In this document: positions 20,150-56,463 of the stretch, one piece after another
How the letters are laid out: every line of letters begins with the position of its first letter
Numbering within the stretch: position 1 is the first letter of the stretch
Assembly (NCBI GenBank): GCA_030068525.1
Contig: JASJOS010000027.1
Span: 1-56,705 of the forward strand
DNA length: 56,705 nucleotides
Reading direction: 5' to 3'
Source: Xanthocytophaga flava
GTDB lineage: Bacteria; Bacteroidota; Bacteroidia; Cytophagales; 172606-1
Notes under the pieces: generated by a model
The model's input: the letters and a program-made list of their open reading frames with translations, nothing else
What the model was told of the DNA's origin: nothing
The model's database searches: none
Translations under genes and position numbers: made by a program

Positions 20150-22333
20150 CTAATACTTCACAATCTTCTTCACAGACACATGATCTGAGAACACTGCCCG
20201 CACAATGTATACCCCTGATGCATATTGACTGATATCAAATGTATAAGCATTGGCTGGTGTACTACTCGAAATACTTGTTTCAGCTATTTTCTGACCAAGT
20301 CCATTCAGAATCTGAATACGCTGCAACCCTTCTGGTTGTGGATAAAACTGAACATCAACATTGCCATCCGTAGGATTAGGCACTACAAGAAACCCTTTTT
20401 CCTTCAGATTTTTATTGATTGTGACCGTTCTCAGGTTTACATCATCCAGATAAATATTATTTTCATATTCTGTTGTATTGCGGAACGCAATCCACAACTC
20501 ACCAGCGCCAATATAATCTCCCAGATTTACAGAATCTTTACGCCATTCACTGGCGGTTGGTTCAAATGCATCTGTTGTGGCAGTTGTTCGTGTCACCAGG
20601 CTACTACCATACTTCTTGTACAGACTGGTATACGTCTTTCCACAATCTGTACTTACCAGTACCTGCAATGTATCCCATACAATACTTCTGGAAGTACTGC
20701 TAACAGAAGTATAAGTAGCCGCTGCAACATAGAACGATAAGTAAGCTGAATCTACCTCGGCGATAGTTAATACAGGTAATATCAGATCGTCAGTTTCATC
20801 ATTGCTGCTATAATCAAAATTGTTGATCTTCACACTGGTGTTACCTGTTCTGGCAATGCCAGTTACTTTTTCCCATGTAATCCCACCATCATTATTTACA
20901 ATGCTCCATCCAACTGGCGGAAATGTACTTCCTTCAAACCCCTCGCTGATTGTGGATACTGGCGCATAATATTGATAGGTTTCACTCAAGACATCATTAC
21001 TTGTTTCCTCATCCGTTTTTCCATTTGGGGAAGAAATACGGATAGTTACCGTATGATCTCCTTCTGGCATGGTAACTGCCGCCAGGGAAATACTGGTTGT
21101 ATTCGCTTTAGCCAAAGAACCTGCCCAGTTATAGGTAGACACTACAGCGTCATCTATTTTTGTAGTGATAGTCAAGGAAGTAAGCGTCTGGCTTCCCCGA
21201 TTACGAATGGTAATGGATGGCGTAAAAGAGTCACTACACAATCGACCTTCCGGATTATCAATCGATTTTAGTTCAGCATTATTGGTGGTAACAACAGCAA
21301 TCTGTGCTCCATCGGATGTCAATAATGATGATCGGTAGGCAACCAAAGCTGCTTCCATTCTAGTCACCTGAGCATCAGTAAACATTACCAGGCAGGCATC
21401 ATCACTATAATCCATATAATTCTGGTACATAATGCCATTTCCTGAAGAAGTACAGTTATCTGTTTTTACTCCTGAATAACATCCACTGGAAGCATCTGCC
21501 TGATTCGGTGTATCTTCTACATAATCCGATCCGGAACAAGCGCCATCATCATCTCCCCAGATATGATACAGATTAAAGTAGTGTCCAGTTTCATGAGTCA
21601 GGGTTCTGCCGCTATTATAATCTGTATATGATCCACCAGGTAATGTTCTGTAATCAATCACAACACCTTGCTCAGCGGCTGGCATATCACCTGGAAAAGT
21701 CGCGTATCCCAGTATACTACCACTACTCGTTGTAGTGATTGCACAAATCCACACATTAAGGTATTTATCAGGGTCCCAGCTATCAGCACCTCTACTGGAG
21801 GTATATTTGACATCATTGGCAGTATAAGAGAACGAACTTTTGGTAGTTGTCACCCGGTTAATTCCGGTTGTTGGATCTCCTGTTGCCGTACGCTGAGCCA
21901 AACTGAACTGTATTCCGGATTTTCCAAATAAGGGCTTAAAATAGGAAGGTATACTTGTAGAGTCAGCATTTGCACCAGCGAAGTCGGCATTTAATATATC
22001 CAGTTGTTTCTGAATCTGAGCATCTGTCACCTGATTGGGATTAGACATCACAATGTGAAAAACAACCGGTATAGAATACACCGTTTTCGCATTACTGGTT
22101 CCACTTCCTGTTCGCGCAGATGACAACCGATAAGAACCCTTCCAAACATCCTGATTAAATTTTTGTGTATTTTGCTCAAACTGCAATTTAAACTTAGCAT
22201 CCAGGGCAAACTTCTGCTTCAAGCGTTCCATTGTAATACAGCGTTGTATGCCACCTGTACTCACGGATTGTCCTAAAACCTGCGTTGTTACTCCCACTAG
22301 TAAAAGGAAAATAAAAAAGTATACACACCTCAT
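20150..22333 (-). CDS. Secreted M43-family (pappalysin-like) metalloprotease with type IX secretion signal
   Basis: 727 residues from the ATG at 22333, which starts the signal peptide MRCVYFFIFLLLVGVTTQVLGQ; an upstream in-frame start adds 25 residues. The zinc site is RTLTHETGHYFNLYHIWGD (first His about residue 247), the extended HEXXH..N..H form seen in cytophagalysin-type M43 enzymes, followed by NYMDYSDDACLVMFT as the Met-turn. The middle holds a CARDB-like beta domain (NRGSQTLTSLTITTKIDD) and a jelly-roll-like region. The last 80 residues form a type A C-terminal sorting domain (GFLVVPNPTDGNVDV ... GVYIVRAVFSDHVSVKKIVKY), directing the protein to the type IX system. It is an extracellular protease. 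Confidence 0.93.
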   Translation of the reverse strand: MRCVYFFIFLLLVGVTTQVLGQSVSTGGIQRCITMERLKQKFALDAKFKLQFEQNTQKFNQDVWKGSYRLSSARTGSGTSNAKTVYSIPVVFHIVMSNPNQVTDAQIQKQLDILNADFAGANADSTSIPSYFKPLFGKSGIQFSLAQRTATGDPTTGINRVTTTKSSFSYTANDVKYTSSRGADSWDPDKYLNVWICAITTTSSGSILGYATFPGDMPAAEQGVVIDYRTLPGGSYTDYNSGRTLTHETGHYFNLYHIWGDDDGACSGSDYVEDTPNQADASSGCYSGVKTDNCTSSGNGIMYQNYMDYSDDACLVMFTDAQVTRMEAALVAYRSSLLTSDGAQIAVVTTNNAELKSIDNPEGRLCSDSFTPSITIRNRGSQTLTSLTITTKIDDAVVSTYNWAGSLAKANTTSISLAAVTMPEGDHTVTIRISSPNGKTDEETSNDVLSETYQYYAPVSTISEGFEGSTFPPVGWSIVNNDGGITWEKVTGIARTGNTSVKINNFDYSSNDETDDLILPVLTIAEVDSAYLSFYVAAATYTSVSSTSRSIVWDTLQVLVSTDCGKTYTSLYKKYGSSLVTRTTATTDAFEPTASEWRKDSVNLGDYIGAGELWIAFRNTTEYENNIYLDDVNLRTVTINKNLKEKGFLVVPNPTDGNVDVQFYPQPEGLQRIQILNGLGQKIAETSISSSTPANAYTFDISQYASGVYIVRAVFSDHVSVKKIVKY

Positions 22334-23142
22334 GGTCTTCTGTTTAGCTAAAATAAATCTCTTTGTTTGTTTTGCCTGTATGACAACTGATACTGCTTTT
22401 ACTCCCACCTGAGGTTTGCTGATTTTTTAAATATTTTAGAGTAGCCTACATCTTTCCATTATGCATGGTCAGTTTTTATGAGTTTACATTAAAAGTAAAG
22501 ATAACATAAGCTAAAACGAAAGACGTTATCTGATAAAGCATGGTTCATTCAGACTTTGTGAATGATTCAATATTATAGTACAATAGATCGGAACAGGGTT
22601 TCTAATTGACAATAATATTACATACTACTTTTTGATAGTCAATTAGTTGCAGGCATGAATAAATCTATTTACTATTCATCTTTCGGTATCCCTCAAACAA
22701 CATTCTTCATTTTAACTATTTTTTCCTATCGGTCTTACGTGGTGCTTTTATTGACCAAAATACATCTTCGACGTCACAATGAAGTACTACAGGTAATTCA
22801 ATAATGAAGTTCCTTCGTAGGTTGTCTGGTATGTTCTGTTTACAAAATGGTACCAGACAACTTTCGTGTGTAAATAATAACCACTCTTCCCATAGCTTAC
22901 CAGAGACATGGAGGTAATGTACAAAATGCGTAAAGTTTATCTAAACATCTCATAGCCAACACACATTTAGGAATAGAATAGTTTAATAAAACATAAAGTC
23001 TGTAGCACTCATTTTTTGCATTCTATTTTTCATTACTTTGCGACTTTTAGTAGTCATGTCAATCTACCTTTGGCTACACGTGTGAACACAATTTGTTGTA
23101 TTTTTATCCATCGCACATTTTCTAGTATAGTTAATTTTTTTC
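22334..23142. other. Gene-poor 0.8-kb intergenic region
   Basis: No convincing gene is seen on either strand. It contains the promoter regions of the divergent protease and DUF4303 genes, and an 11-bp perfect inverted repeat at 22821-22861 described separately. Confidence 0.6.
22821..22861. repeat. Inverted repeat, 11-bp perfect arms
   Basis: GTTGTCTGGTA (22821-22831) pairs with TACCAGACAAC (22851-22861) around a 19-nt spacer. It is far from any gene end, so it is not an obvious terminator. It may be part of an unannotated transcript or a protein-binding site. Confidence 0.8.
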
Positions 23143-43345: not shown

Positions 43346-43361
43346 TCTAAATGTATTTAGA
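43346..43361. promoter_or_regulatory. Palindrome upstream of the secretion cluster, candidate operator
   Basis: TCTAAAT-GT-ATTTAGA is a perfect 7-bp inverted repeat with a 2-nt centre, ending 25 nt before the preferred ATG (43387) of the first gene. It covers the alternative ATG at 43351. Symmetric sites of this size are typical of dimeric repressors; the binding protein is unknown. Confidence 0.45.
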
Positions 43362-43386
43362 GACAATTAAATATGTTAGATTCATT

Positions 43387-43827
43387 ATGTTTTTTACAAC
43401 TAAGAAAATTTCAATCAAGAGAGTAAAGCATCGCCTACCAGCATTTACCTTGACAGAAGTATTAATTGTATTGGTTATTATTGGAATATTAATCCTTCTG
43501 GCATTACCCAATCTTATGCCACTAATAACTCGTGCCAAAAGTACAGAGGCTAAACTTCAGTTAGAGCATTTACATACACTCGAAAAAACGCACTTTTTTG
43601 AAAAATCTTTGTATTCCAGTTCACTGACGGAAATAGGATTCCAACAAGAAAAGCTGGTAACAGAAGGAGAAAATGGCAAAGCAAACTATCGTATTGAAAT
43701 CGTACAGGCAAACCCAACTGGTTATATAGCCCGTGCAACAGCCATAGTAGACTTTGACGCAGATGGCACCTTCAATGTCTGGGAAATAGATCAGAACAAC
43801 AATCTGCGTGAGGTAACTCCGGATTAA
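43387..43827 (+). CDS. gspG: GspG-like major pseudopilin
   Basis: 146 residues from the ATG at 43387; an in-frame ATG at 43351 adds 12. A basic leader (KKISIKRVKHRLPA) precedes the cleavage site and the hydrophobic helix FTLTEVLIVLVIIGILILLA, with Glu at mature position 5. Ala, not Gly, stands at -1. The C-terminal part carries IEIVQANPTGYIARATAIVDFDADGTFNVWEID, the calcium-loop-like region of GspG pseudopilins. It would be the main subunit of the pseudopilus pushing substrate through the secretin. It is first in the cluster, with the prepilin peptidase gene 29 nt downstream. Confidence 0.86.
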   Translation: MFFTTKKISIKRVKHRLPAFTLTEVLIVLVIIGILILLALPNLMPLITRAKSTEAKLQLEHLHTLEKTHFFEKSLYSSSLTEIGFQQEKLVTEGENGKANYRIEIVQANPTGYIARATAIVDFDADGTFNVWEIDQNNNLREVTPD

Positions 43828-43856
43828 TCAATTAAACTTTTAGTAAAGAGTTAGCA

Positions 43857-44369
43857 TTGAAATACTTACCTTATTTCATTTATATCCTTTTGTTGATTAT
43901 CTTTTTTGAAGATATACGCAATCGAGCCATTTCATTATGGGTTCTGCTTTTACTTGTTATAGGATTGAGTATACAGAAAAGATTATGGCAATTTCAGGAG
44001 GAGGCATATCTGGAAATTTCTATTAACTTTCTCTTTTTGGCCATTCAGCTAGTACTACTAACTATTTATCTATCAATAAAATACAAACAGTTAGTTAATA
44101 TATGTTTGCATTATTTAGGAGCAGGAGATATTGTATTTCTTGTCATAATAGCTCTTTCACTTAGTCCACTGGAATATATATTCTTTTACATAGGATCTTT
44201 GTCGATTATTGGATGTGGGATAATAATCCGATCAGCTTTGTTTACAAAATCATTCCACACTAATCAGACTAGTATTCCTCTTGCTGGCTTACAAGCAATT
44301 CTTCTTCTCATTTATTTTCTATTTCGGAACCAACTCTATCCGGAATGGTTACTGGTTCATCTGATATAA
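43857..44369 (+). CDS. Minimal type IV prepilin peptidase (A24 family)
   Basis: 170 residues, about six membrane helices, lacking the N-terminal methyltransferase domain and zinc cysteines of PilD. The two catalytic aspartates are seen in FFEDIRNRAISLW (first, near residue 19) and HYLGAGDIVFL (the GxGD motif, near residue 93). It would cleave leaders of the pseudopilins encoded around it. The start is TTG at 43857: no ATG lies in frame before the first helix and a stop is nine codons upstream. It is 29 nt after the GspG-like gene. Confidence 0.84.
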   Translation: MKYLPYFIYILLLIIFFEDIRNRAISLWVLLLLVIGLSIQKRLWQFQEEAYLEISINFLFLAIQLVLLTIYLSIKYKQLVNICLHYLGAGDIVFLVIIALSLSPLEYIFFYIGSLSIIGCGIIIRSALFTKSFHTNQTSIPLAGLQAILLLIYFLFRNQLYPEWLLVHLI

Positions 44370-44440
44370 ACTAATGCTTTGCACTCGGTTTTCAAGACCG
44401 TAAGAACAGAGTTTATAGGATCTATCATTACGCAAATACT

Positions 44441-45913
44441 ATGCAAGAAAAACCTACTGGCTCATTAGACGTTATTGTTGATGCACATAGTGACAGTGTT
44501 GCTCATACAGAATTACTTGATGTGGAATTAGCGTGGCATTACAGAATTGTACCCCAGCAAATCACCAAGGAAGTATCTGTTTTGTGGATAGATCAGCAAA
44601 AAGATAATGAAGAAACTAAGGCAGAGTTGGAATTTTTATTGGAAGGAACGATAGAACTCAAACCTGTAGCGGGAATCTGGATTGAAGAACAACTCAGAAT
44701 ATATTATCCAAATCAAAAGGTAACATCTCAAACTCAAGAGATACAACCCCTTAATCAAACTGATCATGACTTCATCAATCGAATGATAGAACAGGCTCGT
44801 TTGTCAGGAAGTAGTGATATTCATATTGAAACCTATGAACAGTCTTGTCGGATTCGTTTTCGTATTGATGGTGGTTTAGTAGAAAAATACCACCTGGATA
44901 AGAATCAATATCCTTCACTTATTAATAAGATAAAGATATTGTCCAATCTAGATATTGCAGAAAAACGATTACCTCAGGATGGCCGTATTTTTTTTCAGTC
45001 GCCTCAGACAGGTAAAATTGATCTGAGGGTTTCTACTTTGCCAACTCTGTATGGAGAAAAGATTGTTATGCGTCTTTTGGGAAATGATGGCAATCAGGTA
45101 GATATAAGTGCATTAGGATTTTCTGCCATACAACAGGAGCATTTCATGGAATCTATCCGACGTCCAAACGGAATTATCCTAATCAGTGGACCAACAGGTT
45201 CGGGAAAGACTACTACTTTATATGCCTTATTAAAACAGCTAAATAGGAAAAACAAAAATCTTCTTACGATTGAAGATCCTATCGAATATACCCTTTCGGG
45301 TGTTAATCAGGTACAGGTAAAAGAAAGTATCGGTCTTACCTTTGCGAGTGCCCTTAGAACATTTCTTCGTCAAGACCCAGATGTAGTTATGGTAGGTGAG
45401 ATACGAGATATTGAAACAGCTACTATTGCAATTCGAGCTGCACTCACTGGCCGTTTGGTTCTTTCGACCATACATACCAATTCTGCCTGGGGAATTGTAT
45501 CCCGATTGATTGATATGGGAATACCCCCCTTTCTCCTGGCAAGCACACTTCATATGGCTGTTGCTCAGCGACTAGTCAGACAGTTATGCCCTCACTGCAA
45601 AACACAAACTCCCCTTGATGTTACACTTTTCCCAAAACACTACCAACCTCCTCGTGCCCTTGTTTCACACTATATAGCTACAGGTTGTTCTATCTGCCAC
45701 CAATCCGGTTATCAAGGCAGGCGAGCAGTTTATGAGGTTGTACCTATGGATAGTGATTTGATGGTTAGCATAAAAAATAAAGAGATCGATGTTTCAGCAA
45801 CTTTATCTCAGAAAGGAATCAGTCGACTTAGTGACAGTGCATTCAGACTATTCGAAGAGGGGCATACCTCGCTGGAAGAAATTTATCCACTGCTCTTACC
45901 TTCTGCCGGCTAA
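44441..45913 (+). CDS. gspE: GspE/PilB-type secretion ATPase
   Basis: 490 residues, cytoplasmic. After an N1/N2-type domain comes the core: Walker A GPTGSGKT (250-257), Asp box IEDPIEYTLSG (277-287), Walker B DPDVVMVGE (312-320) and His box LTGRLVLSTIHTNSA. The zinc-binding tetracysteine motif is CPHC (383-386) with CSIC (416-419). Those cysteines and the length mark a GspE/PilB assembly ATPase rather than a PilT retraction ATPase. It powers pseudopilus growth from the inner face of the membrane, working with the GspF- and GspL-like proteins. A 71-nt gap follows the peptidase gene. Confidence 0.94.
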   Translation: MQEKPTGSLDVIVDAHSDSVAHTELLDVELAWHYRIVPQQITKEVSVLWIDQQKDNEETKAELEFLLEGTIELKPVAGIWIEEQLRIYYPNQKVTSQTQEIQPLNQTDHDFINRMIEQARLSGSSDIHIETYEQSCRIRFRIDGGLVEKYHLDKNQYPSLINKIKILSNLDIAEKRLPQDGRIFFQSPQTGKIDLRVSTLPTLYGEKIVMRLLGNDGNQVDISALGFSAIQQEHFMESIRRPNGIILISGPTGSGKTTTLYALLKQLNRKNKNLLTIEDPIEYTLSGVNQVQVKESIGLTFASALRTFLRQDPDVVMVGEIRDIETATIAIRAALTGRLVLSTIHTNSAWGIVSRLIDMGIPPFLLASTLHMAVAQRLVRQLCPHCKTQTPLDVTLFPKHYQPPRALVSHYIATGCSICHQSGYQGRRAVYEVVPMDSDLMVSIKNKEIDVSATLSQKGISRLSDSAFRLFEEGHTSLEEIYPLLLPSAG

Positions 45914-46044
45914 CAGTCCATGAAAATCAGCAGGTTGGTTTGAGTCATTGATGTGCATTGAGTTAAGAGTAAATATTACATATGTAGAAAATGGCATTAG
46001 TGTGACTTTATACACTGATACATGAAGCGGATATTTGCTCTATT

Positions 46045-48015
46045 ATGAAAATAGTAGTTTATTATCTTAAAAAGAGAGTTTTACCATTTTTTCTTCTTGT
46101 TTTTATCTCAGTTCCCATTCTGGCACAACAAAACCGATTTGCAGATCTAGAGCAACAACTCAACAATCTGTCTAATCAGTTACCAGGATTAAAGGAAAAA
46201 GTAGATATTTCCATTTCGGGTTCTTCCATTCAGGAGTTTTTACGAGGGTTGGCAATTGCCAATCAACTCAATATTAATATTGATCCGCAATTAAACATCA
46301 AGGTTTATAATAACTTTACCCGTGAAACGGTCTCAAACATTATTATTTTCCTTGCCAGAGAATATGATCTGGATGTAAGGTTTGTTGGGACTATTATGTC
46401 TTTTTCCAAATACAAGCCTGTTGTAGAAGTAGTCGCACCAACAGTAAGACAGATTGATGTCCGGTATAATTCGTATACACAACTGCTAAGTATGGATCTC
46501 AGATCTGATACGCTCAGTTCCGTAGTACGTAAAATCACTCAGCTAACCAAGAAAAATGTTATTAGTAGTGCTGACCTATCTGGTAAAACGGTAAGCATCT
46601 ACCTGGAAGATGTTCCTATAGAAGAAGCTGTTGAGAAGATGGCTATGGTTAATGAACTGAAATCGACCAAAACATCTGAAAATTTCTTTTTAATACAAAA
46701 GCAAGATGCTTCTGACCCCAATATGCTGGCCTCAAATGGGCAGATGGGCAACTTTTCACAGAATCGGGGACAGCCTTATCGTAACCCTTCCGGCCAGCCT
46801 TCTTATGGAGGGGGAAGCGGAAGAGTATTTGTACATACAACAGATTCTCTGGGGAACCGCTATGTAGATGTGAATGCAATGAATGCTCCATTCAGTGAAG
46901 TACTTGATGCAGTAGCACATGAAATGAATATTAATTATTTCTTATACTCTGATTTAAAAGGAAATATTACAACACAGGTTTCTAAACTTACCTTTGAAGA
47001 TTTCCTCTCCCGTTTCTTTCGGGGAACAGATTATACCTTTCAAAATGAAAAGGGTGTGTATCTTGTTGGAGACCGAAAACTGGAAGGCCTACGAGCTAAT
47101 CGTCTGTTTCAGTTTCAGTTTCGTTCGTTGGAAACTGTTGAAGAAGCTATTCCTGCAGAATTAAGAAGAGGTGTTGAAATCAAGAATTTTAAAGAATTAA
47201 ACGGCATTCTGCTGTCAGGCTCTCTGCCACAAATATTGGAAGTAGAAGCTTTCTTAAAACAAATCGATCGGGTAGTTCCACTGGTGATGATTGAAGTAAC
47301 ACTAGTGGATGTTCGTAAAACCCGAACAATTAGCACAGGAATAAAAATGGGGTTGGGAGACAGTACAACCGTAACCAGGGGTTCGATTCTGCCAGGAGTA
47401 GATTTTACATTAAGTTCCTCTTCCATTAACGATCTGTTATCCCGCATAAGCAGTGTCACACCTTTGAATATTGGACGGGTAGCGCCTAACTTCTATGTAG
47501 GGCTGAGTGCACTGGAGGCTAATAATAATGTCGAAGTTCGCTCCATGCCAAAGCTGTCAACACTCAATGGACATAGTGCTACTCTCAGTATAGGTAGTAC
47601 ACGATATTACAGTGTAAAAACCCAAAACGTAGTGGGAACACTTACTCCACAAACAGTTATTACAGAACAATTCAATGCTGTCCAGGCTAATCTTGGTATA
47701 GCTATTACCCCTATTGTTTCATCAGATGATCAGGTAACACTAACCATTGATGTGGGAATAGCTGACTTTATTGGAGATCCACCTAACAATGCTCCACCTC
47801 CCTCCTCAAATAGTCAGTTTAAGTCTATAATCAGGGTCCGGAATGAGGAAATGGTTGTACTGGGAGGATTGGAAAGAACTGAAAACAGCAAAAGTGGATC
47901 TGGAACACCCTTACTTTCTCGTATTCCTCTGATTGGACGCTTGTTTAGCTCTAAATCTAACTCACATAACAAAACAGTATCTATTGTATTTATCAAACCT
48001 ACCATTATTTATTAA
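46045..48015 (+). CDS. gspD: GspD/PilQ-type secretin
   Basis: 656 residues with a signal peptide ending ILAQQ (about 29). The N-terminal half contains STN/N-domain-like modules (ISISGSSIQEFLRGLAIA, VNAMNAPFSEVLDAVAHEMN). The C-terminal secretin domain shows VPLVMIEVTLVDVRKTRTIS, VRSMPKLSTLNGHSATLSIG, VQANLGIAITPIVSSDDQVTL and MVVLGGLERTENSKSGSGTP, then LLSRIPLIGRLFSS. This is the outer-membrane gate of the machine. No lipobox is seen, so a separate pilotin may be needed; the lipoprotein encoded at 49898 is a candidate. The 131-nt gap before it could hold a secondary promoter. Confidence 0.94.
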   Translation: MKIVVYYLKKRVLPFFLLVFISVPILAQQNRFADLEQQLNNLSNQLPGLKEKVDISISGSSIQEFLRGLAIANQLNINIDPQLNIKVYNNFTRETVSNIIIFLAREYDLDVRFVGTIMSFSKYKPVVEVVAPTVRQIDVRYNSYTQLLSMDLRSDTLSSVVRKITQLTKKNVISSADLSGKTVSIYLEDVPIEEAVEKMAMVNELKSTKTSENFFLIQKQDASDPNMLASNGQMGNFSQNRGQPYRNPSGQPSYGGGSGRVFVHTTDSLGNRYVDVNAMNAPFSEVLDAVAHEMNINYFLYSDLKGNITTQVSKLTFEDFLSRFFRGTDYTFQNEKGVYLVGDRKLEGLRANRLFQFQFRSLETVEEAIPAELRRGVEIKNFKELNGILLSGSLPQILEVEAFLKQIDRVVPLVMIEVTLVDVRKTRTISTGIKMGLGDSTTVTRGSILPGVDFTLSSSSINDLLSRISSVTPLNIGRVAPNFYVGLSALEANNNVEVRSMPKLSTLNGHSATLSIGSTRYYSVKTQNVVGTLTPQTVITEQFNAVQANLGIAITPIVSSDDQVTLTIDVGIADFIGDPPNNAPPPSSNSQFKSIIRVRNEEMVVLGGLERTENSKSGSGTPLLSRIPLIGRLFSSKSNSHNKTVSIVFIKPTIIY

Positions 48016-48035
48016 TTAGTAAGAGATAATACCCA

Positions 48036-49235
48036 ATGATATCTTCACTTTTCCCTAATTGGACCAAGAAGGCAGCAGGCATCGAAATACAGCTTATTTC
48101 GGAGAGTGAATATCTCTGTCAGGGAATTATCTTAACTCAGAAGAAAGGACAAATTGCCATCGACCGTATTATTCCTCAAATCCAGGATTTGTCACTTCTA
48201 CTTACTTCTTTTGAGAAAACACAACCTGTCTGGTTTATCATCAGCGGTAAAACGATTCTAACACGTAAAAGAGACTCAAAGCCTTTAGGTCCATCCTCAC
48301 AGGCCGAGCTGTTTTATCAACAGGAATATCCGGTTGATCAGCAGAGAAGTCATGCGTATACGAGTCTTATTCGAAAAGATAAGCTTGACCCAATTTTACA
48401 ATGTATTAAAGAATATGCAGGCAATGTAAAAGGCATTAGTCTGGGTGGCGTATCCCTATCCACACTTGGTCCCTTATTAGTAGAGAATAAACTGGAAGTT
48501 GGTGATAGTAAATGGGAGTTCAGTCAGGGAATATTGACAGACTATCAGCAAATACGTACAGAAATTGGAGAGGACAATTTACGTAAAGAAATAGATCTGG
48601 GAGGAGATCTGTTGCCTGCAGCCAGTTTGCTTGCCTATGCAGCAGCCTGGGCGGCACTTATGGAAAGTGGGCAGTTTATGCAATGGGACTGGCTTTCTCA
48701 ACATAAAAAGCAGTATCAATATGAGCATCTATTTCCGTTGTTAGTAAAGGCTGGTCTTGCTGTGTTCTTTGTTTTGCTCTTAGGCAATTTCTTACTTTTC
48801 AATCACTACTTCTCTAAAAAGAATCAACTTGAACAACAAACTCTTCATCTCAGTAGCCATCTTACCCGTCTGGATTCACTGCAGCAACTAATGGCAGCCA
48901 GAGAAAGCTGGCTTGAAAAAACAGGATGGAATACACCCTCTGTAAGTAGCTTCTACACAGATCAGATTGCAGCTTCACTACCAACTCTCATTCTGCTTAA
49001 AGAACTTACATTATATCCACAACAACAACTCTCAGTGACTGCAATAGCCAAAACGCCCTCTTTTCAGGCAAATCAGATTCTGATGAAAGGACTGTGTAAT
49101 CACCCATCCGAGATGACGCCTGTGACAGAAAAGCTGAGAGCTTTCCACTGGATCAAACAAGTGACTGTGGTGGATTATCATTTTGATACAAAAGAGAAAA
49201 AAGGAAGCTTCATTATTCAGATACTTTTAAAATAA
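48036..49235 (+). CDS. GspL-like protein (PilM-like plus PilN-like halves fused)
   Basis: 399 residues. Residues 1-230 are cytosolic with PilM/GspL-like actin-fold character (AAGIEIQLISESEYLCQGI, GNVKGISLGGVSLSTLGPLL, then EIDLGGDLLPAASLLAYAAAW). One membrane helix lies at about 233-256, followed by a coiled coil (KKNQLEQQTLHLSSHLTRLD) and a periplasmic ferredoxin-like region ending GSFIIQILLK, as in PilN. The fused order is that of GspL. It would tie the ATPase to the periplasmic frame. Identification rests on order of domains and position, since sequence conservation is low. Confidence 0.75.
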   Translation: MISSLFPNWTKKAAGIEIQLISESEYLCQGIILTQKKGQIAIDRIIPQIQDLSLLLTSFEKTQPVWFIISGKTILTRKRDSKPLGPSSQAELFYQQEYPVDQQRSHAYTSLIRKDKLDPILQCIKEYAGNVKGISLGGVSLSTLGPLLVENKLEVGDSKWEFSQGILTDYQQIRTEIGEDNLRKEIDLGGDLLPAASLLAYAAAWAALMESGQFMQWDWLSQHKKQYQYEHLFPLLVKAGLAVFFVLLLGNFLLFNHYFSKKNQLEQQTLHLSSHLTRLDSLQQLMAARESWLEKTGWNTPSVSSFYTDQIAASLPTLILLKELTLYPQQQLSVTAIAKTPSFQANQILMKGLCNHPSEMTPVTEKLRAFHWIKQVTVVDYHFDTKEKKGSFIIQILLK

Positions 49236-49273
49236 ATCAGTAACAACCAGAAAGAATTGTAGTAAAAACAACT

Positions 49274-49822
49274 ATGAGTCGGCCATCATTGATCACAACA
49301 TTCCAAACTGCAGATTATAAAAAGAAAACCATCTGGTTATTGGGAGGGTATGCAGTTCTATTGCTGTTGTCCTATCAGCTGGCATTTAAAAATACCTGGG
49401 CTATATATAACCAGGCAAAAATAATGGAACAGAAGATCGAGCAGGCTCCGCTTGCCGCTGCAAAAGCAAATGAATTACAACAAAAACTCACTCATCTACA
49501 GACATTAACCACAACGGATGTAGACTCAACTTCCCGTGGATTGTTGATGCTAATTAGCAACGAATGCAGAGAAAATGGTCTGATATTAAAGGCATTTCCA
49601 GAGCAAATCCGTGAACAAAAGCAGGATATGCAGATTCTTACCCAACAATGTATTGTTGAAGGAAGATTTCATTCATTGCTTACCTTACAACACAGGATTG
49701 AACAACAGAAAAAGCTAGGACGAATTGTTTCCGCTACATACCATACCCGAATAGACTATGAACAACAGAAGAAAGTGTTGGAACTAATTCTATACATACA
49801 ATCTATTCAACTCCCCAAATAA
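49274..49822 (+). CDS. PilO/GspM-like alignment-complex protein
   Basis: 182 residues: a short cytosolic start, one membrane helix (about 19-37, TIWLLGGYAVLLLLSYQLAF), a coiled coil (about 44-75) and a periplasmic domain with a strand-helix pattern that includes RGLLMLISNECRENGLILKAFPEQ and HSLLTLQHRIEQQKKLGRI. This is the architecture of PilO/GspM, partner of PilN/GspL. It directly follows the GspL-like gene, as in other clusters. Confidence 0.78.
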   Translation: MSRPSLITTFQTADYKKKTIWLLGGYAVLLLLSYQLAFKNTWAIYNQAKIMEQKIEQAPLAAAKANELQQKLTHLQTLTTTDVDSTSRGLLMLISNECRENGLILKAFPEQIREQKQDMQILTQQCIVEGRFHSLLTLQHRIEQQKKLGRIVSATYHTRIDYEQQKKVLELILYIQSIQLPK

Positions 49823-49897
49823 GTTGACTCTTTATTGGGAAAATCCAAAATATCAATCAACCAGATACTACGTTATTTAGATGCCAGAATACCTCCT

Positions 49898-50293
49898 ATG
49901 AAACAATATACTTTCTTTAGACTGCTTTACTATCCCTGTTGGCTTGTGTTTCTTTGTTTAATTCTATCGGCATGTGACCAGTTGCTGGAGCCTTCCCTTA
50001 CCGAGAAAACACCCATTTTATTATCTCCCACAGACTCAGTGAAGTTAACCGAAACGGAAGCTACCTTCTGGTGGGAGTCTATGCAGGGTGCCACTAACTA
50101 TCAACTTCAGGTAGTATCTGGTTCGTTTGGAGCCGTAAGCAAACTCTGGGCGGATACACTTGTTTCTACCAATAAGTTCACATTAGAATTGCAACCTGGC
50201 CACTATTCCTGGAGAGTACAGGCTCGTAATCTGAGCAGTCAGTCAGAGTTTACGCAATCCTCTTTCCAGATTGATACAACTTCGGGTAAATAA
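49898..50293 (+). CDS. Lipoprotein with FN3-like domain, secretion-cluster component
   Basis: 131 residues from the ATG at 49898; an upstream TTG at 49835 would add 21 residues before the signal. The lipobox is LILSAC, giving a lipidated Cys at about residue 26. The mature part is a single beta sandwich: TPILLSPTDSVKLTETEATF, WESMQGATNYQLQVV and GHYSWRVQARNLSSQSEF, as in fibronectin-III-like domains. Being a small lipoprotein inside a secretin cluster, it might act as a pilotin or as a surface-exposed adaptor; neither is shown by sequence. Confidence 0.75.
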   Translation: MKQYTFFRLLYYPCWLVFLCLILSACDQLLEPSLTEKTPILLSPTDSVKLTETEATFWWESMQGATNYQLQVVSGSFGAVSKLWADTLVSTNKFTLELQPGHYSWRVQARNLSSQSEFTQSSFQIDTTSGK

Positions 50294-50311
50294 AACTTTA
50301 CAGAAGATCCA

Positions 50312-50839
50312 ATGAAAAACAAACCGTTGACTTTCTTTCTGCTGCTTGCTGTGGCTTCTGTATGGGGAATTATATTTTATAGAGTTTTTGCTTCTCTCTC
50401 AGAGGAACCCGTTACTTCTTCGTTTGAGGAAAAACCTCAGCATCCCTCTGTCTATCCGATAGAAGATTCTTATCAACTATTAGGTAATTACCGTGACCCT
50501 TTTCTGGGAAATAACGCAGAAAAAGTACAGGATGAAGCAGGTTCTATCAGAAAACCACAACCAACTCTTACTCATTACTCATCCACATCTGCTGACAGAG
50601 CAGGTGGTAGTGTTTCAGAAAAAGAGATGGCAGCCCGTACACAGCTAGCGCAACTAAGCTATATGGGGATTATTCAGAATGCAGCTTCAGGACAAAAAGT
50701 TTGTCTGGTCAGTTTTCAGGGAAAAGAACGTATCCTCCGTGAAGGAGAAACGCTGGAAGGTATTGTCTTAAAAAAAGCAACTCCCGACTCTATACTGGTT
50801 AGTATTCAAAACATAAAGTTATATCTGAAAAAACAGTAA
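50312..50839 (+). CDS. PilP/GspC-like inner-membrane connector
   Basis: 175 residues: one N-terminal membrane helix (about 5-25), a proline/serine-rich linker, the YRDPFLG motif at 60-66 typical of PilP and GspC homology regions, and a C-terminal beta domain (LSYMGIIQNAASGQKVCLVSF, then ERILREGETLEGIVLKKATP and SILVSIQNIKLYL) matching the HR/PilP fold. It would link the inner-membrane platform to the secretin N-domains. Its gene starts 18 nt after the lipoprotein stop. Confidence 0.8.
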   Translation: MKNKPLTFFLLLAVASVWGIIFYRVFASLSEEPVTSSFEEKPQHPSVYPIEDSYQLLGNYRDPFLGNNAEKVQDEAGSIRKPQPTLTHYSSTSADRAGGSVSEKEMAARTQLAQLSYMGIIQNAASGQKVCLVSFQGKERILREGETLEGIVLKKATPDSILVSIQNIKLYLKKQ

Positions 50840-50856
50840 GTGATACTCAAGTAACT

Positions 50857-51840
50857 ATGTACTTATATACTTCTTCTATACGGTTGTCTTTTCAAGCTTG
50901 CTTTACCAATATCCAACGGATCTGCTGGATATTGGTAGTGATTCTGTTAGGCATCCCCATGGTTAAGGCACAAAAAATAGAAATGCCTTTGCATAACAGG
51001 GTTATTGTCAATTATCCGGAAAAGGTAGTCTATGCCTATTATCTGCCTTCAGATCAGAAACACAAACCAGCAAAAGAATCTTTGTTCTATTACTGGTTTG
51101 CGGCCAATGATATCAAACGTACACGTGGTGCATATGATGGCAAATTACTTCATGGTACCTATACCGAGTTTTACTCCAATAAGAATCTGAAAGAAAAAGG
51201 GGTGATGCGTCATGGAATTAAAACAGGTATCTGGCAGGGTTGGTATGGGAATGGAGAAAGAAAAGAAATCATCCACTGGGATAAGAAAGGACTTAGGGGT
51301 CGCTTTCGCACCTTTAATGAAAGCGGAAATCTGACAAGCCGGGGTACATACTGGAATGATAAGCTGGATGGCAAAGTTTATGTCTATGATGAGGCTGGAA
51401 AAAAAACCAAGCTACGTTACAAAGACGGTAATCTACTCACAAAGGTGAAGAAAAACCGCAAACAGAAAAAAGCAGATGCACCGCAGGTAGAAAGCCAGCA
51501 GGGTAAAGAAACCAAATGGCGCAAGTTAAAACGTAAAATGCACCTACCTAAAATACATCTACGTAAGTCAAAAAAGACTGCAACAGATGGACAGCCTGCC
51601 AGTCAGAATCCAGCTCCTGCTGATCAAAAAAAGAAAAAAGAACGCAAAGGCAAAAAAGAGAAAGCCGAACAGGTATCCAATGATATACAGATCTCTAATG
51701 GCATGCAGGTGCCGAATGGAGTGGTAGAAACACCGTCTGTATCACAACAGGAGAATGCTTCGTCTAAGCAGAAAAAAGAAAAGAAAAAGAAGAAACAGAG
51801 AAAGGCTCCTGCTGAGCCTGCAACAAACACTACACCTTAG
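50857..51840 (+). CDS. MORN-repeat protein with lysine-rich tail, inside the secretion cluster
   Basis: 327 residues. A signal peptide or anchor (about 20-45, ICWILVVILLGIPMVKAQ) is followed by MORN_2-type repeats: YDGKLLHGTYTEFYSNKNLK, GVMRHGIKTGIWQGWYGNGE, GLRGRFRTFNESGNL and GKVYVYDEAGKKTKLRYKDG (about 95-195). From about 200 on, the sequence is low-complexity and extremely lysine-rich (KKKKERKGKKEK, KEKKKKKQRK) with threonine/proline ends. MORN_2 repeats occur in YwqK-like antitoxin-type proteins and surface proteins. Its place between the PilP- and GspK-like genes, with a short spacing, points to a part in or on the machine. The role is unknown. Confidence 0.78.
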   Translation: MYLYTSSIRLSFQACFTNIQRICWILVVILLGIPMVKAQKIEMPLHNRVIVNYPEKVVYAYYLPSDQKHKPAKESLFYYWFAANDIKRTRGAYDGKLLHGTYTEFYSNKNLKEKGVMRHGIKTGIWQGWYGNGERKEIIHWDKKGLRGRFRTFNESGNLTSRGTYWNDKLDGKVYVYDEAGKKTKLRYKDGNLLTKVKKNRKQKKADAPQVESQQGKETKWRKLKRKMHLPKIHLRKSKKTATDGQPASQNPAPADQKKKKERKGKKEKAEQVSNDIQISNGMQVPNGVVETPSVSQQENASSKQKKEKKKKKQRKAPAEPATNTTP

Positions 51841-51868
51841 CAGAGTCATTGATTTACTCCTACATCCC

Positions 51869-53128
51869 ATGTTTACTGGTAGCAAAAAGCTCAAAGCCCA
51901 TGCCTTAACCATTGTGGTTGTCATAGCCCTTGTTATCAGTCTGATTTCAGGGGCATTGATTCTGCTTGCCTATCATCAGCGACTTATCCTGCAACAACGA
52001 GTGCTACAGGGAAAAATGGAGCGGAATATGGATTCTGCCACTGAACTACTTTTGTCAGAACATACCATCCCTCTGAATCAACACACCGGACTGGATCTTT
52101 TTCAGGATGGCAGAGATAGCGTCTGGCTGGAAAAACAACAGTGGGGAATTTTTGAATTAGCTCATCTGCATATACAGGAAGGCATACATAGCTGGGATAA
52201 GAGCTTTTTATACGGGTATCAGCCTGATAGTAGCCAAACTGCCTTATTTCTGGAAGAAAACGGACTGCCCTTGTATCTGGGAGGAGAAACTACCCTTTCC
52301 GGAATTGGTTATCTGCCAGAAGCAGGACACAAAGAACATACCATTTCCAATATAGCTATCAATTCAATTTCTTTTCGGCTGGATAAACAACACAGAAGCG
52401 GAAAACTTCCAACTCCTGATGCCCAGTGGGTACAGACGATTCAGAAAACCTATCTGAACCGGGCAGATAGTCTTATACCAACCAAAACACCTCTCAGTTC
52501 GGATACACTCTATCAATCCTTTACACAACCTGTACGCACCATTTATACAAACAAGCCTCTTTTGCTTTCCAACATAACCATTCGGGGCAAGGTGCTTTTA
52601 CAGTCAGACACAGTAATTCGGGTTAGTAAGTCGGCTCATCTGGAAGACGTGATCCTGGCAGCTCCTCAGATTTTTATTGAAGATGAGTTTAAAGGTAGCC
52701 TACAGGCCTTTGCCAGCGATAGCCTTATTTTAGGTAATAATTGTGTGCTCATGTATCCGACCGTACTAGCCATTGCCAAAACAAAGGAGAATGAAAAACA
52801 GCCTAACCTGCGGGTTGGAAACCAATCCATTGTCAAAGGTATTATCCTGGGAATCCACTATATAGAGGATTTGAAACGAACCCGTATTGTGCTTGAGGCA
52901 GACAGTGAGCTCGAAGGACAGGTATATACTGCGGGCTTTCTCGAATCAAGAGGTAGCATTCGGGGAGGGGTACTATGCCACAAGTTTACCTGGCACGACC
53001 AGATTTCGGTGTATGAAAACCATCTGATCAATACCCGAATCGAAACAACAAAAGCCAGTCGGTATTTTGTTGCAGGCAATTTGCTTACATCCAAACGCGG
53101 AAAGGGGGTTGCCAAATGGGTAGAATGA
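51869..53128 (+). CDS. GspK-position protein: single-pass anchor with beta-helix-like ectodomain
   Basis: 419 residues from the ATG at 51869. A short basic start (FTGSKKLKA) precedes one hydrophobic helix (HALTIVVVIALVISLISGAL); the -1 Ala and the missing Glu at position 5 resemble GspK/PilX-type minor pilins. The ectodomain is large. Its second half is rich in short strands with regular turns (NITIRGKVLLQSDTVIRVSK, LEDVILAAPQIFIEDEFKGS, TRIVLEADSELEGQVYTAGF, RGSIRGGVLCHKFTW), suggesting a right-handed beta-helix as in polymer-forming bactofilin-like proteins. It ends in an ATGA overlap with the next gene. Function inferred from position only. Confidence 0.68.
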   Translation: MFTGSKKLKAHALTIVVVIALVISLISGALILLAYHQRLILQQRVLQGKMERNMDSATELLLSEHTIPLNQHTGLDLFQDGRDSVWLEKQQWGIFELAHLHIQEGIHSWDKSFLYGYQPDSSQTALFLEENGLPLYLGGETTLSGIGYLPEAGHKEHTISNIAINSISFRLDKQHRSGKLPTPDAQWVQTIQKTYLNRADSLIPTKTPLSSDTLYQSFTQPVRTIYTNKPLLLSNITIRGKVLLQSDTVIRVSKSAHLEDVILAAPQIFIEDEFKGSLQAFASDSLILGNNCVLMYPTVLAIAKTKENEKQPNLRVGNQSIVKGIILGIHYIEDLKRTRIVLEADSELEGQVYTAGFLESRGSIRGGVLCHKFTWHDQISVYENHLINTRIETTKASRYFVAGNLLTSKRGKGVAKWVE

Positions 53129-53499
53129 GTTTTCCAAAAAGATCGGTCTTGGTGAGTGTTCAACTGCCGGCAGCCTCTCTTATCGAAGTCATTATAGCCA
53201 TGGTCATCTCGTCGGTCTTTTTCGGACTTGGCACCATGGTGTATCTGCAGATACTATCCTCTTCCCTATCCCCACAAAAACTCAGAGCAGACCGATGGGC
53301 TACTGCACTCATACAAAAGACCAGAGAAGAAAGGTCCTATCTTGATCAGCAGTTTGCAGAAAACGGGCTCCTGGCAGAAAAGAAGGTGACGCTTCGGGAA
53401 GAAGGAAAAGATCTTTATCAGGTTGAGATCTCTATAGCTGATTCAACACATACTGTGCTTATCCACCGTAAACAACTTATGCAGTTACCACCTGAATAG
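53125..53499 (+). CDS. Minor pseudopilin (GspI/PilV-like)
   Basis: 124 residues from the ATG at 53125, which forms an ATGA overlap with the preceding stop; an ATG at 53116 adds three residues. The prepilin leader (FPKRSVLVSVQLPA) is followed by ASLIEVIIAMVISSVFFGLG with Glu at mature position 5. The short soluble part (TREERSYLDQQFAENGLLAE, DLYQVEISIADSTHTVLIHR) matches the size of GspI. It would be part of the pseudopilus tip with the GspJ- and GspK-position proteins. Confidence 0.82.
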   Translation: MSFPKRSVLVSVQLPAASLIEVIIAMVISSVFFGLGTMVYLQILSSSLSPQKLRADRWATALIQKTREERSYLDQQFAENGLLAEKKVTLREEGKDLYQVEISIADSTHTVLIHRKQLMQLPPE

Positions 53500-53563
53500 T
53501 CCGTTACCAATCCAATAGCCAATCATACTCATGATTGGCAGATCCTAAACCAGTCAAAACAAA

Positions 53564-54148
53564 ATGAAACGCTTTACCCTACACGCTGGCATTTTCCGAA
53601 AAACACTTCCTGCCTTTACCATCGCAGAGATGGTAGTAGTATTGCTGTTAAGTGCTATTGTGATTGGGGTTGCCTACCGGGGACTAGCCTTTGTGCTTAT
53701 TCGTTTCAGTCAGTTTCACCAGCGAAGCCACTTGATTTCGGAGCAGGTGCTCTTTGATAAAACCCTATCCAACGATTTAGCGCACTGCCGATTGCTGGTA
53801 GCCAAAGAGAACACAATCTATTGTCTTTATACGGCTAAAACCATACGCTATCAATTTGCACAGGAGTGGATACTACGGATGGATCACTCCAGAAGTGACA
53901 CGTTTCATCTACCCACAAACCATCTAAGCGTACAGTCTATTACAGGTACTGCACAAGAACAGGAACTGCTCGTTCCTATACCCTTGGCAGTAGTAAATCA
54001 AGTACGTTTTCAAACAAGCCTGTTAAAAGAGAAAGACTCCACCCTTCCGGATACATTTCTCTACCAGAAAAAGTATGCAGCAGACACTTATCTCAATGCC
54101 GATTTTTATTTTGAAGAAGCCTTGAAGGCTGTTGAAAACAGTTTATAA
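53564..54148 (+). CDS. Minor pseudopilin (GspJ/PilW-like)
   Basis: 194 residues. The prepilin leader (MKRFTLHAGIFRKTLPA) is followed by FTIAEMVVVLLLSAIVIGVA, with Glu at mature position 5. The soluble part includes LISEQVLFDKTLSNDLAHCR, the linker-helix pattern of GspJ, followed by IYCLYTAKTIRYQFAQEWI, as in PulJ-like proteins. Its last 17 nt overlap the start of the GspF gene. It would join the pseudopilus tip complex. Confidence 0.8.
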   Translation: MKRFTLHAGIFRKTLPAFTIAEMVVVLLLSAIVIGVAYRGLAFVLIRFSQFHQRSHLISEQVLFDKTLSNDLAHCRLLVAKENTIYCLYTAKTIRYQFAQEWILRMDHSRSDTFHLPTNHLSVQSITGTAQEQELLVPIPLAVVNQVRFQTSLLKEKDSTLPDTFLYQKKYAADTYLNADFYFEEALKAVENSL

Positions 54149-55337
54149 CCCTATTCTTTCGCATATCCTTTCGCAGAAACCAAGCACTATGCCCGTAGAT
54201 ATTCACAAACTTGCCAAGCCTTCTTCTGTAGTTCCGTCTGAGACTACACAAAGTGGCTTTCTGGATAAGGCTCTCTCCGTCCTCAATAAGGACATTCGTT
54301 TTTCTTCTGGTTTTAGCGACAAGAAGAAAGAGGCTTTTTATACTCAACTGGGTATATTGCTCGAATCCGGGATTGATATCAAAACAGCACTCGAGCTACT
54401 TACCGAAGAACAAACCAGTGAACGTGACAAGGCAATGCTTACTCAGATTACCAGTCAGGTAGTAAAAGGAACACCGTTATCACAGGCCATGCGGGAGGCT
54501 GAAACGTTTTCTGTGTATGAGATTTTCAGTACCGAAATTGGCGAAGAGAGTGGTAAACTGGCCTATACACTTACCCAGCTCTCAGGCTACTATCAAAAGA
54601 AGATTAAGCAACGCAGACAAATCATCAGCGCCCTCACCTACCCTGCCATTGTGAGCTGTACCTCTTTTGGAGCTGTGTTTTTTATGCTTCGGTTTGTGGT
54701 TCCCATGTTTGAAGATGTATTTAAACGTTTTGGTGGCAATCTGCCTTTGATCACCCAATGGGTAGTGGATTTATCCAACGTATTAGGGGATTACTTTATG
54801 TACTTCTTTGTGGGTTCGGTTCTGATGGCTGGATGGATTTACAAAGAGCGCAAAAAGGAATGGCTTCGTAAATTGTCTGCCCGTGTATTGCTGCGCATTC
54901 CTTTTATCGGCAATCTGGTAGCCCGAATCTATCTGACCCGGCTCTCCTTTGCATTTACCTTACTGCTTGGATCGCGCATTAATCTGACACGGGCTATTGC
55001 GCTGGTCAGGCAGATGATTCCCTTCTATCCATTGGAAGTCTCATTGCGCCAGATGGAAGACGATATTGTCAATGGGAGTTTTATGCATACCTCAATGGCA
55101 AAGTTTCCGATTTATCCCAAACGAATGATTTCGCTGATCAAAGTAGGTGAAGAGGTTAATCAGCTCCCTGAGTTTTTTGAAAAGATAGCCAAACAATATT
55201 CTGATGAGGTAGAACACCAGTCGAGTCTGCTTAGCAGTGTACTTGAGCCACTCATTATCGTGTTTCTGGGCGTGCTGGTAGGATTTATTCTGATTGCAAT
55301 GTACTTGCCGCTGTTTAAGATGAGTACGGCATTTTAG
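54132..55337 (+). CDS. gspF: GspF/PilC-type inner-membrane platform protein
   Basis: 401 residues, or 382 from the ATG at 54189 (MPVDIHKLAKPSSV); the longer start overlaps the GspJ gene by 17 nt. Two T2SSF domains: the first FYTQLGILLESGIDIKTALE with GTPLSQAMREAE and EIGEESGKLAYTLTQL; the second FAFTLLLGSRINLTRAIALV with SLIKVGEEVNQLPEFFEKIA. Three membrane helices are seen (about 165-195, 230-250 and 370-395). It is the rotating platform that couples the ATPase to pseudopilus assembly, and closes the cluster. Confidence 0.93.
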   Translation: MKTVYNPILSHILSQKPSTMPVDIHKLAKPSSVVPSETTQSGFLDKALSVLNKDIRFSSGFSDKKKEAFYTQLGILLESGIDIKTALELLTEEQTSERDKAMLTQITSQVVKGTPLSQAMREAETFSVYEIFSTEIGEESGKLAYTLTQLSGYYQKKIKQRRQIISALTYPAIVSCTSFGAVFFMLRFVVPMFEDVFKRFGGNLPLITQWVVDLSNVLGDYFMYFFVGSVLMAGWIYKERKKEWLRKLSARVLLRIPFIGNLVARIYLTRLSFAFTLLLGSRINLTRAIALVRQMIPFYPLEVSLRQMEDDIVNGSFMHTSMAKFPIYPKRMISLIKVGEEVNQLPEFFEKIAKQYSDEVEHQSSLLSSVLEPLIIVFLGVLVGFILIAMYLPLFKMSTAF

Positions 55338-55383
55338 TTCTGTTTATTTCCCCTTTCAATTCGTAACATAAATTCCCTTGTCT

Positions 55384-56463
55384 ATGGCAAAAAAAGAAAC
55401 AACACTTTCACTCATTTCCTGGCTGGATAAATTTATTGCTGAGTCTAAAAATGGAAAACGACTTCAGAAAAATGGCAAACGCATCACAGACGGAACTATC
55501 GACCAGTACCAGTATCTGAGCAAACTTCTGGAGGACTTTGAAACTGCAAAACAATTTCCACTACGTATTAAGCTTTTAACTACGTCAAATGCCAGAGTCT
55601 TTGAAACAGAAAAAAACTACTGGAAGAAGTTTTACCGCAAGTTTACAGATTACCTATATGACGATCTGGGATGTTTCGACAACTATGTGGGGTGTATGAT
55701 CAAAACATTGCGGGTATTTTTCAATTATCTTTCGGAAAGTAAGGGTATGCCTGTTGGTAGTTTTCACAAACAGTTTTATGTACCCAAAGAAGATATTTCA
55801 ATCGTAGTAGTAACCCCTGAACAACTAAATTACTTGATCTATGACAAAACCTTTGAACAGTCGTTGTCAGTAGAGCTAGATCGTATCAAGGATATATTTG
55901 TGGTTGGTTGTACAGTCGCACTTCGTTTTTCGGATCTGATGAATTTAAAAGCAGCCAATCTGGAGATTGTAGGTGACCGCTGGTATTTACAGGTACGATC
56001 CAAGAAAACACAAACCTACACCCGTGTATTATTGCCTGAGTACGCTAAAGCCATTTTAAAGAAGTATAAGGGCAAACATAAAACCCTGCTTCCGGCATTT
56101 TCCAAAGATTACCTCAATGCAAAGTTTAAAGAACTCGGCGAACTGGCTGGATGGACAACTCCACTGATCAAAACCCGTAACCGCAGAGGTGTTCCTATCA
56201 CAGTATACAAAGAAAAAGGAAGCCGACGCAATTACCGCTTCTGTGATTCCATCACAACCCATACGATGCGTCGTTCTGCGATTACAACTATGCTCACACT
56301 GGGTATGCCAGAATACCTGGTACGCAAGATCTCAGGACATGCACCGAACAGCAAAGAATTCTTCCGGTATGTTTCACTGGCACAGAGTTACATGGACAAT
56401 GAAATATCACAGGTTTTTGATAAATTGGCTGTTAAAAAAGAAGAATCCCAACTGGTAGATTAA
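55384..56463 (+). CDS. Tyrosine recombinase / phage-type integrase
   Basis: 359 residues from the ATG at 55384. A SAM-like N-terminal part (about 10-130) precedes the catalytic domain starting VVTPEQLNYLIYD. Catalytic residues: Arg in VALRFSDLMNL, Lys in RSKKTQTYTR, HTMRRSAIT (HxxR), ISGHAP and the nucleophile in FRYVSLAQSYMDNEI. It differs from XerD (9950-10846) and belongs to the integrase group common in Bacteroidota mobile elements. It lies 46 nt after the GspF gene on the same strand. It may belong to an integrated element whose remainder is outside the window, or invert local DNA; no excisionase or attachment repeats were found. Confidence 0.9.
   Translation: MAKKETTLSLISWLDKFIAESKNGKRLQKNGKRITDGTIDQYQYLSKLLEDFETAKQFPLRIKLLTTSNARVFETEKNYWKKFYRKFTDYLYDDLGCFDNYVGCMIKTLRVFFNYLSESKGMPVGSFHKQFYVPKEDISIVVVTPEQLNYLIYDKTFEQSLSVELDRIKDIFVVGCTVALRFSDLMNLKAANLEIVGDRWYLQVRSKKTQTYTRVLLPEYAKAILKKYKGKHKTLLPAFSKDYLNAKFKELGELAGWTTPLIKTRNRRGVPITVYKEKGSRRNYRFCDSITTHTMRRSAITTMLTLGMPEYLVRKISGHAPNSKEFFRYVSLAQSYMDNEISQVFDKLAVKKEESQLVD

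Follow-up and report, generated by a model that had tools for sequence, protein, structure and literature searches.

A thirteen-gene cluster of Xanthocytophaga flava with type IVa pilus-like and type II secretion-like features, and the linkage of its relatives to RHS genes in Bacteroidota

The gene cluster analyzed here is located on contig JASJOS010000027.1 of Xanthocytophaga flava (GenBank assembly GCA_030068525.1), which was taken over its whole length of 56,705 bp (the window) and belongs to a genome of 9.49 Mb. The stretch from 43351 to 55337 contains 13 intact, tightly packed open reading frames (ORFs), all on the plus strand and with intergenic gaps of -17 to 131 bp, confirming the preliminary description of thirteen genes of one direction that form a type II secretion or type IV pilus-like cluster. 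Judged from sequence comparison, there is an even chance that these genes encode an exporter derived from a type IVa pilus, devoid of retraction and similar in operation to a type II secretion system (T2SS), whose cargo would include RHS polymorphic toxin-like proteins. The RHS proteins are likely cargo because RHS genes adjoin the machine in many relatives.

The proteins of the window were scanned with hidden Markov models (HMMs) of the Pfam type, and matches that missed the model's own cut-off are referred to as below cut-off. The assembly ATPase of the GspE/PilB kind (44441..45913; T2SSE, E 5e-127), the secretin (46045..48015; Secretin, 1e-37, and STN) and the GspF/PilC platform protein (54132..55337; T2SSF, 3e-44) were all assigned above cut-off, as was a MORN_2-repeat protein (50857..51840; MORN_2, 1e-9) that by eye has an N-terminal hydrophobic segment and a lysine-rich tail. 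The N_methyl matches of three pilins were below cut-off: the PilA/GspG-like major pilin (43351..43827; site LPA↓FTLTE; just below), the I-type minor pilin (53116..53499; A↓ASLIE; 0.003) and the J-type minor pilin (53564..54148; A↓FTIAE; 0.012). The major pilin may also start at 43387, an internal ATG of the ORF that begins at 43351. The match of the short A24 prepilin peptidase (43857..44369; Peptidase_A24, 0.0024) was likewise below cut-off. No Pfam match at E 1 was obtained for the window copies of four proteins: the GspL-like (PilM/PilN-type) inner-membrane protein L (48036..49235), with one hydrophobic segment by eye; the GspM/PilO-like protein M (49274..49822); the GspC/PilP-like protein C (50312..50839; 175 amino acids, no PDZ match); and K (51869..53128). 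The lipoprotein LPP (49835..50293; start possibly at 49898), with an Ig/Fn3-like domain, gave two matches below cut-off. These five proteins were assigned through their conservation, and L, M, C and K also through matches in relatives. Going by where its hydrophobic helix lies, the start of K was taken as 51869 and not as the ORF start at 51755, which overlaps the MORN gene. The earlier assignment of parts thus stands by HMM for the ATPase, secretin and GspF, but is below cut-off for the A24 peptidase and pilins and rests on relatives for L, M and C.

Comparison with relatives revealed that the cluster is patchy within its order and recurrent across the phylum. In an order-level sample of 118 genomes, the window's own included, a long T2SSE match was found in 14. 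Thirteen family profiles, built from 12 fetched regions, were scanned on the best 80 of 345 secretin-related loci (hereafter the 80 named loci), whose labels are nearly all of Bacteroidota and of several orders, with one Chlorobiota and one Lachnospiraceae among the metagenome-assembled genomes. The window's exact order and strand of 13 genes is repeated in 25 of these 80 loci, and therefore the arrangement is not due to chance; gene order, which the preliminary description had proposed to compare within Cytophagia, is kept both in other Cytophagales and phylum-wide. All 13 families occurred within the fetched DNA in 38 loci, and in many of the incomplete ones a contig or locus end truncates the cluster, or the MORN-K-I-J-F block lies elsewhere or is reversed. 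LPP and the A24 peptidase were each present in 73 loci, K in 50 and MORN in 48, and LPP, the MORN_2 protein and K are thus further conserved cluster genes across Bacteroidota, in agreement with the phylum-specific extra parts suspected earlier. In a sample of 395 Bacteroidota genomes, a strong secretin match (E below 1e-30) was found in 32, with weaker secretin matches in another 46, and K was present in 31: both occurred together in 28 genomes, K only in three, the secretin only in four and neither in 360. A 110-kb plasmid of Persicobacter sp. JZB09 (CP012864.1; loci L144/L178), which was reached through the ATPase search and separately from the loci in which RHS genes were first seen, carries all 13 genes, with MORN reversed and K apart.

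Clustering of the neighboring genes of the 80 named loci showed that the top two families outside the core, found in 29 and 22 loci (the next reach 11), are giant, exported-looking proteins, namely RHS (YD-repeat) proteins and a YD-type partner family, here called fam2, which is weakly SpvB-like (E 0.0042 in one of the four fam2 proteins scanned). An RHS-core profile was built from 18 places, genome-wide RHS counts were made with TIGR03696, and the Pfam models RHS_repeat and DUF6443 were also used. The RHS core was found in 28 of the 80 loci, fam2 in 22 and either of them in 44, and in 31 of these 44 the nearest RHS or fam2 gene was co-directional with the nearest core gene. Of the 50 named loci whose genomes had been searched, 21 contain the RHS core, where uniform placement of the genome-wide counts predicts 1.64 (P 5e-20); different profiles served for the local and the genome-wide detection, and 20 loci remain at 40 bits or more. 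In the phylum sample, the RHS core was found in 144 of 395 genomes, comprising all 32 with a strong secretin match and 112 of the 363 others (Fisher P 8e-16); it was present in all three K-only genomes and in 109 of the remaining 360. Distances in 35 sampled genomes pointed the same way: an RHS core or DUF6443 match lay within 5 kb of the secretin or K in seven genomes (1.3 expected, P 2e-4), and the number rose to 21 for a distance of 10 kb (at most 2.4 expected, P 2e-17) and to 23 for 15 kb (3.4 expected). In Cytophagales families, RHS genes were found in 13/13 ATPase-positive and 8/16 ATPase-negative genomes (P 0.003), the latter hand-picked from those listed in the order survey, and within one family (f26) the counts were 10/10 and 10 of at least 19 (P about 0.009). 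DUF6443 was considered as an exclusive label of the machine and rejected, being present in 38 of the 363 genomes without a strong secretin match.

The arrangement of the linked genes is compatible with cargo made as a pair. The Persicobacter plasmid has a fam2/RHS pair on either side of the machine, at a distance of about 7 kb before K and of about 4.5 kb after F, and both pairs share the main strand of the machine. In locus L171, the genes that run up to K on its strand are fam2, a gene of 226 amino acids, an RHS gene (2,513 amino acids) and three small ORFs, one of which by eye resembles a REP-type transposase; the end of the RHS gene is 2.6 kb from K. The gene of about 230 amino acids between fam2 and RHS (L171-L173) gave no Pfam match at E 0.1 in L171 and only one at E 0.058 in L172, and an HMM of it found no further members. 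RHS and fam2 proteins with complete N-termini appear by eye to bear signal peptides, and the linked genes have the RHS core, RHS repeats and variable C-termini of RHS polymorphic toxins. They resemble the RHS/TcdB-TcaC-type toxins in the available part of Zhang (2012; PMC3482391) in their signal-peptide-like N-termini, RHS core, differing C-termini, small downstream genes and the weakly SpvB-like fam2. That part files signal-peptide RHS toxins under "T2SS/Sec-dependent" and gives no signature neighborhood gene for them, whereas here a concrete outer-membrane machine is linked to RHS genes. Among the matches listed from the open-licence literature, no title or abstract gave the link between RHS and this machine, DUF6443 had no match in that literature, and the available part of a study of F. 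columnare (PMC5524665) presents pil genes and an RHS protein separately.

The individual parts combine features of two families of machines. The major pilin scored 61 bits with the Myxococcus PilA model and 35 bits with GspG, both below cut-off, and its family profile matched M. xanthus PilA best among Protein Data Bank (PDB) chains (2.4e-15; GspG 6.8e-5). The residue preceding the pilin cleavage site was alanine in 51, glycine in 10 and serine in three of 64 readable sequences, the window included (8 of 72 were unreadable); glycine is customary in this position elsewhere. By eye, Glu5 is missing from the N-terminal helix of the major pilin in seven loci (L057, L058, L069, L072, L080, L082, and L087), several of them labeled Flavobacteriales. 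The A24 peptidase, with 170 amino acids, is too short for an N-terminal methylase domain. Sorting the ATPase into GspE or PilB by score was tried and dropped, the scores being nearly equal for both models (473 and 484 bits; about 350 each in another comparison). The secretin has STN/N0-like modules followed, in each of seven orthologues, by one Secretin_N module (below cut-off in six) and then the secretin domain; in the window copy itself the Secretin_N module gave no match. Against PDB chains, the secretin profile aligned with GspD over 364-646 at best and with PilQ (6w6m) over 261-646, a comparison in which divergent modules could escape detection. This layout may be read as nearer to PilQ than to GspD; canonical GspD has an N0-N1-N2-N3 layout with three Secretin_N modules.

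For the platform proteins, the matches come from relatives. Of the 67 members of the L family, 37 gave a PilN match with E no higher than 1 (best 2.7e-8). In the M family, T2SSM matched in three and PilO in two of 11 members, both weakly (best 0.004 and 0.04), and in the C family T2SSC matched at E up to 1 in four of 10 members (best 2.6e-4); the window copies of all three gave none of these matches. By eye, most LPP relatives combine the lipobox with an acidic motif that follows its cysteine and is of the C-x-[DE]-x-x-E type (CDQLLE in the window copy). This motif may be an F. johnsoniae-type surface-export signal. The window LPP has 152 amino acids, and 57 of 74 LPP-family proteins of the named loci have at least 290. 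The pilin-like N-terminus of K consists by eye of basic residues, a small residue and a hydrophobic helix without Glu5. Behind it, 38 of the 49 family members gave a Bactofilin match with E no higher than 1 (best 3.5e-6; none in the window copy), and it is on these Pfam matches that a bactofilin-like fold is suggested; against PDB chains the K profile reached Bactofilin A only at E 0.58, ranked behind an unrelated enzyme. We take K to resemble GspK, as it sits just before the minor pilins I and J and lacks Glu5.

With respect to classification, the machine mixes T2SS-like and type IVa pilus-like features. A GspE-type ATPase, GspF and a secretin occur together at the Pfam level, as in a T2SS, but the equivalog cut-offs of NCBIfam were missed (GspE 473 of 630, GspD 125 of 351, and GspG 35 of 89 bits), as were those of PilB and PilQ. 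A GspG-type major pseudopilin was not found, Myxococcus PilA outscoring GspG in both the model and the PDB searches. The machine shares with the canonical proteobacterial T2SS (Gsp) the ATPase, GspF, the secretin, a fused-looking L with putative M and C, one major and several minor pseudopilins and the lack of a retraction ATPase, and differs from it in the PilA-leaning pilin, the one Secretin_N module seen, the short A24 peptidase and the additional LPP, MORN and K. Homologues of PilB, PilC, PilQ and PilA are present at family level, as in a type IVa pilus, and so are the PilA-like major pilin and an apparently PilQ-like secretin layout, but the L/M/C organization looks T2SS-like and the retraction ATPase PilT was absent: a profile search found a single T2SSE match in the window's genome, the cluster ATPase, and therefore no PilT. 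Since the ATPase scored about equally with the GspE and PilB models, the placement relies on Denise (2019; PMC6668835), whose available part reports that the Bacteroidota system always groups with type IVa pili and away from T2SS in trees, and proposes a possible novel secretion system for it. Thus, the secretion-like filament machine of the preliminary description stood, but membership in the T2SS family was not demonstrated.

A relative of the cluster has been described in Cytophaga hutchinsonii as a putative T2SS (CHU_3191-CHU_3202), for which mutants were made (Wang, 2017; PMC5553014). According to the available part of that paper, mutants in D, F and G had altered cellulose-bound outer membrane proteins, less adhesion and less beta-glucosidase activity, with motility unaffected, and reverse-transcription PCR linked two gene pairs only, so that the cluster there may not be a single operon. 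The gene set is the same as in the window, and the order F, G, A24, E, D, L/M/C reported there recurs here as a circular permutation, F being the last gene of the window's cluster. By gene order, CHU_3192, unnamed in that annotation, and the hypothetical CHU_3202 should be LPP and K; MORN and the adjacent RHS gene are not mentioned in the available part, and the order of T2S-C, L and M differs from the one found here. The gene order of locus L039/L171 is K-I-J-F-G-A24-E-D-L-M-LPP-C-MORN. We take this locus to be that of C. hutchinsonii, partly from gene order.

In the proposed mechanism, the 13 genes would form a type IVa pilus-derived secretion machine that works like a T2SS and without retraction. 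Sec would deliver the proteins to the periplasm, where the machine would receive them, and a short pseudopilus, built by the ATPase and GspF on the L/M/C platform, would drive them out through the secretin. K, with its bactofilin-like head, may sit at the pseudopilus tip as piston and cargo adaptor, LPP would be an outer-membrane component and the MORN protein a periplasmic one. A main cargo class in the phylum would be giant RHS (YD-repeat) polymorphic toxin-like proteins, often paired as a fam2 partner followed by an RHS-core protein with a variable C-terminus. A bolder version, to which we give somewhat less than an even chance on sequence grounds, is that of a separate Bacteroidota secretion system, which arose from type IVa pili on a path apart from that of the T2SS, has K, LPP and MORN among its own core parts, is dedicated to giant two-protein RHS toxins and can travel with its cargo on plasmids.

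Several observations weigh against the proposal of an RHS-exporting machine. The RHS core was also found in 112 of the 363 genomes without a strong secretin match, and therefore other routes of RHS export exist; in the window's own family, four of five ATPase-negative genomes have RHS genes. The window's genome gave 10 RHS-core matches, all on other contigs, and in a congener (G024) none of the RHS matches listed was near the cluster. No RHS core or fam2 was detected in the fetched flanks of 36 of the 80 named loci, some with several kb on both sides, and in 13 of the 44 positive loci the nearest such gene was not co-directional. Further gene families recur beside the cluster, each in up to 11 of the 80 loci; in locus L175 (G056) the major pilin is neighbored by a large gene (730-4449) that is not RHS and whose end looks by eye like a sorting tail of the type IX secretion system (T9SS); and genome G051 has a second, shorter T2SSE protein. 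The genomes are related, so that the Fisher P values overstate independence, the threshold for a strong secretin was set after the list had been seen, with the 46 weaker matches counted as negative, and the RHS link was noticed first in the named loci themselves, from which the phylum sample and the plasmid are separate. In C. hutchinsonii, the extracellular profiles of the mutants hardly changed, and in the available part of the paper the phenotypes concern cellulose and outer membrane proteins, with no direct cargo named (PMC5553014).

Alternatively, the same machine may be a general exporter or surface-presentation system for hydrolases, lipoproteins and adhesins, with RHS genes as mere frequent neighbors on shared variable islands, a reading that we regard as possible but rather unlikely. 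The C. hutchinsonii defects in outer membrane proteins, adhesion and beta-glucosidase (PMC5553014), the unlinked RHS genes of the window's genome and the patchy, in Persicobacter plasmid-borne, distribution of the cluster, as island genes would show, are in its favor, and a joint preference for variable islands could explain part of the linkage. However, the linkage exceeds the genome-wide RHS density about ninefold to thirteenfold, and RHS genes occur in all 32 strong-secretin genomes. That the genes encode a plain type IV pilus, used in adhesion or DNA uptake and not in secretion, appears improbable: the major pilin, which of all the models and PDB chains searched comes nearest to Myxococcus PilA, the one Secretin_N module seen, as in PilQ, and the trees in the available part of Denise (2019) would suit it, but the genome has neither PilT nor another T2SSE paralogue, L resembles a fused GspL, the 13 genes (the scope of that search) gave no Pfam match of the PilY1 or Che type, and the C. 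hutchinsonii mutants, in the available part of the paper, showed no motility effect (PMC5553014). That the RHS proteins leave instead by the T9SS, the cluster being unrelated to them, seems very improbable. The T9SS is present in the window's genome (SprA, a frame of 2,427 amino acids, and Por_Secre_tail on an M43 protease), as the preliminary description had concluded from the protease tail, and the available part of PMC7073777 proposes TANFOR toxins of Bacteroidetes as its substrates; yet the T9SS C-terminal sorting domain was found in 0 of 15 RHS and fam2 proteins scanned with the same library that finds the tail on the M43 protease, and the RHS linkage is with this cluster, the only one to which it was measured.

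Regarding the surroundings, two RHS proteins of the window's genome have signal-peptide-like N-termini and LamG, DUF6443 and RHS domains, and, with regard to a dedicated immunity gene as in polymorphic toxin loci, small genes follow an RHS gene on one of its contigs (G000 C5), two of them lipoprotein-like. On two other contigs (G000 C29, locus L169, and C8), RHS-core reading frames are broken by stop codons. The M43 metalloprotease with the T9SS C-terminal sorting domain lies at 20150-22408 of the window, and a tyrosine recombinase gene (55378-56463), 40 bp past GspF, closes the gene series of the contig, which ends at 56705. Between 42500 and 56705, sites resembling promoters and terminators were not more frequent than in shuffled sequence, and the motif TTTG/TANNTTTG gave seven matches in the window against 2.85 expected, none of them upstream of the cluster on its strand.

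As a machine, the cluster was known before: it was reported in 2017, and its unusual character was pointed out in 2019. The observations added here are the conserved LPP, MORN and K parts and the linkage to RHS genes. The available part of Wang (2017) left the cargo open, and the genetic link to RHS makes the cargo question directly testable in C. hutchinsonii. If the proposal of an RHS-exporting machine is true, it would provide an outer-membrane route for those RHS toxins that bear Sec signals and that Zhang (2012), in the available part, could only label "T2SS/Sec-dependent".

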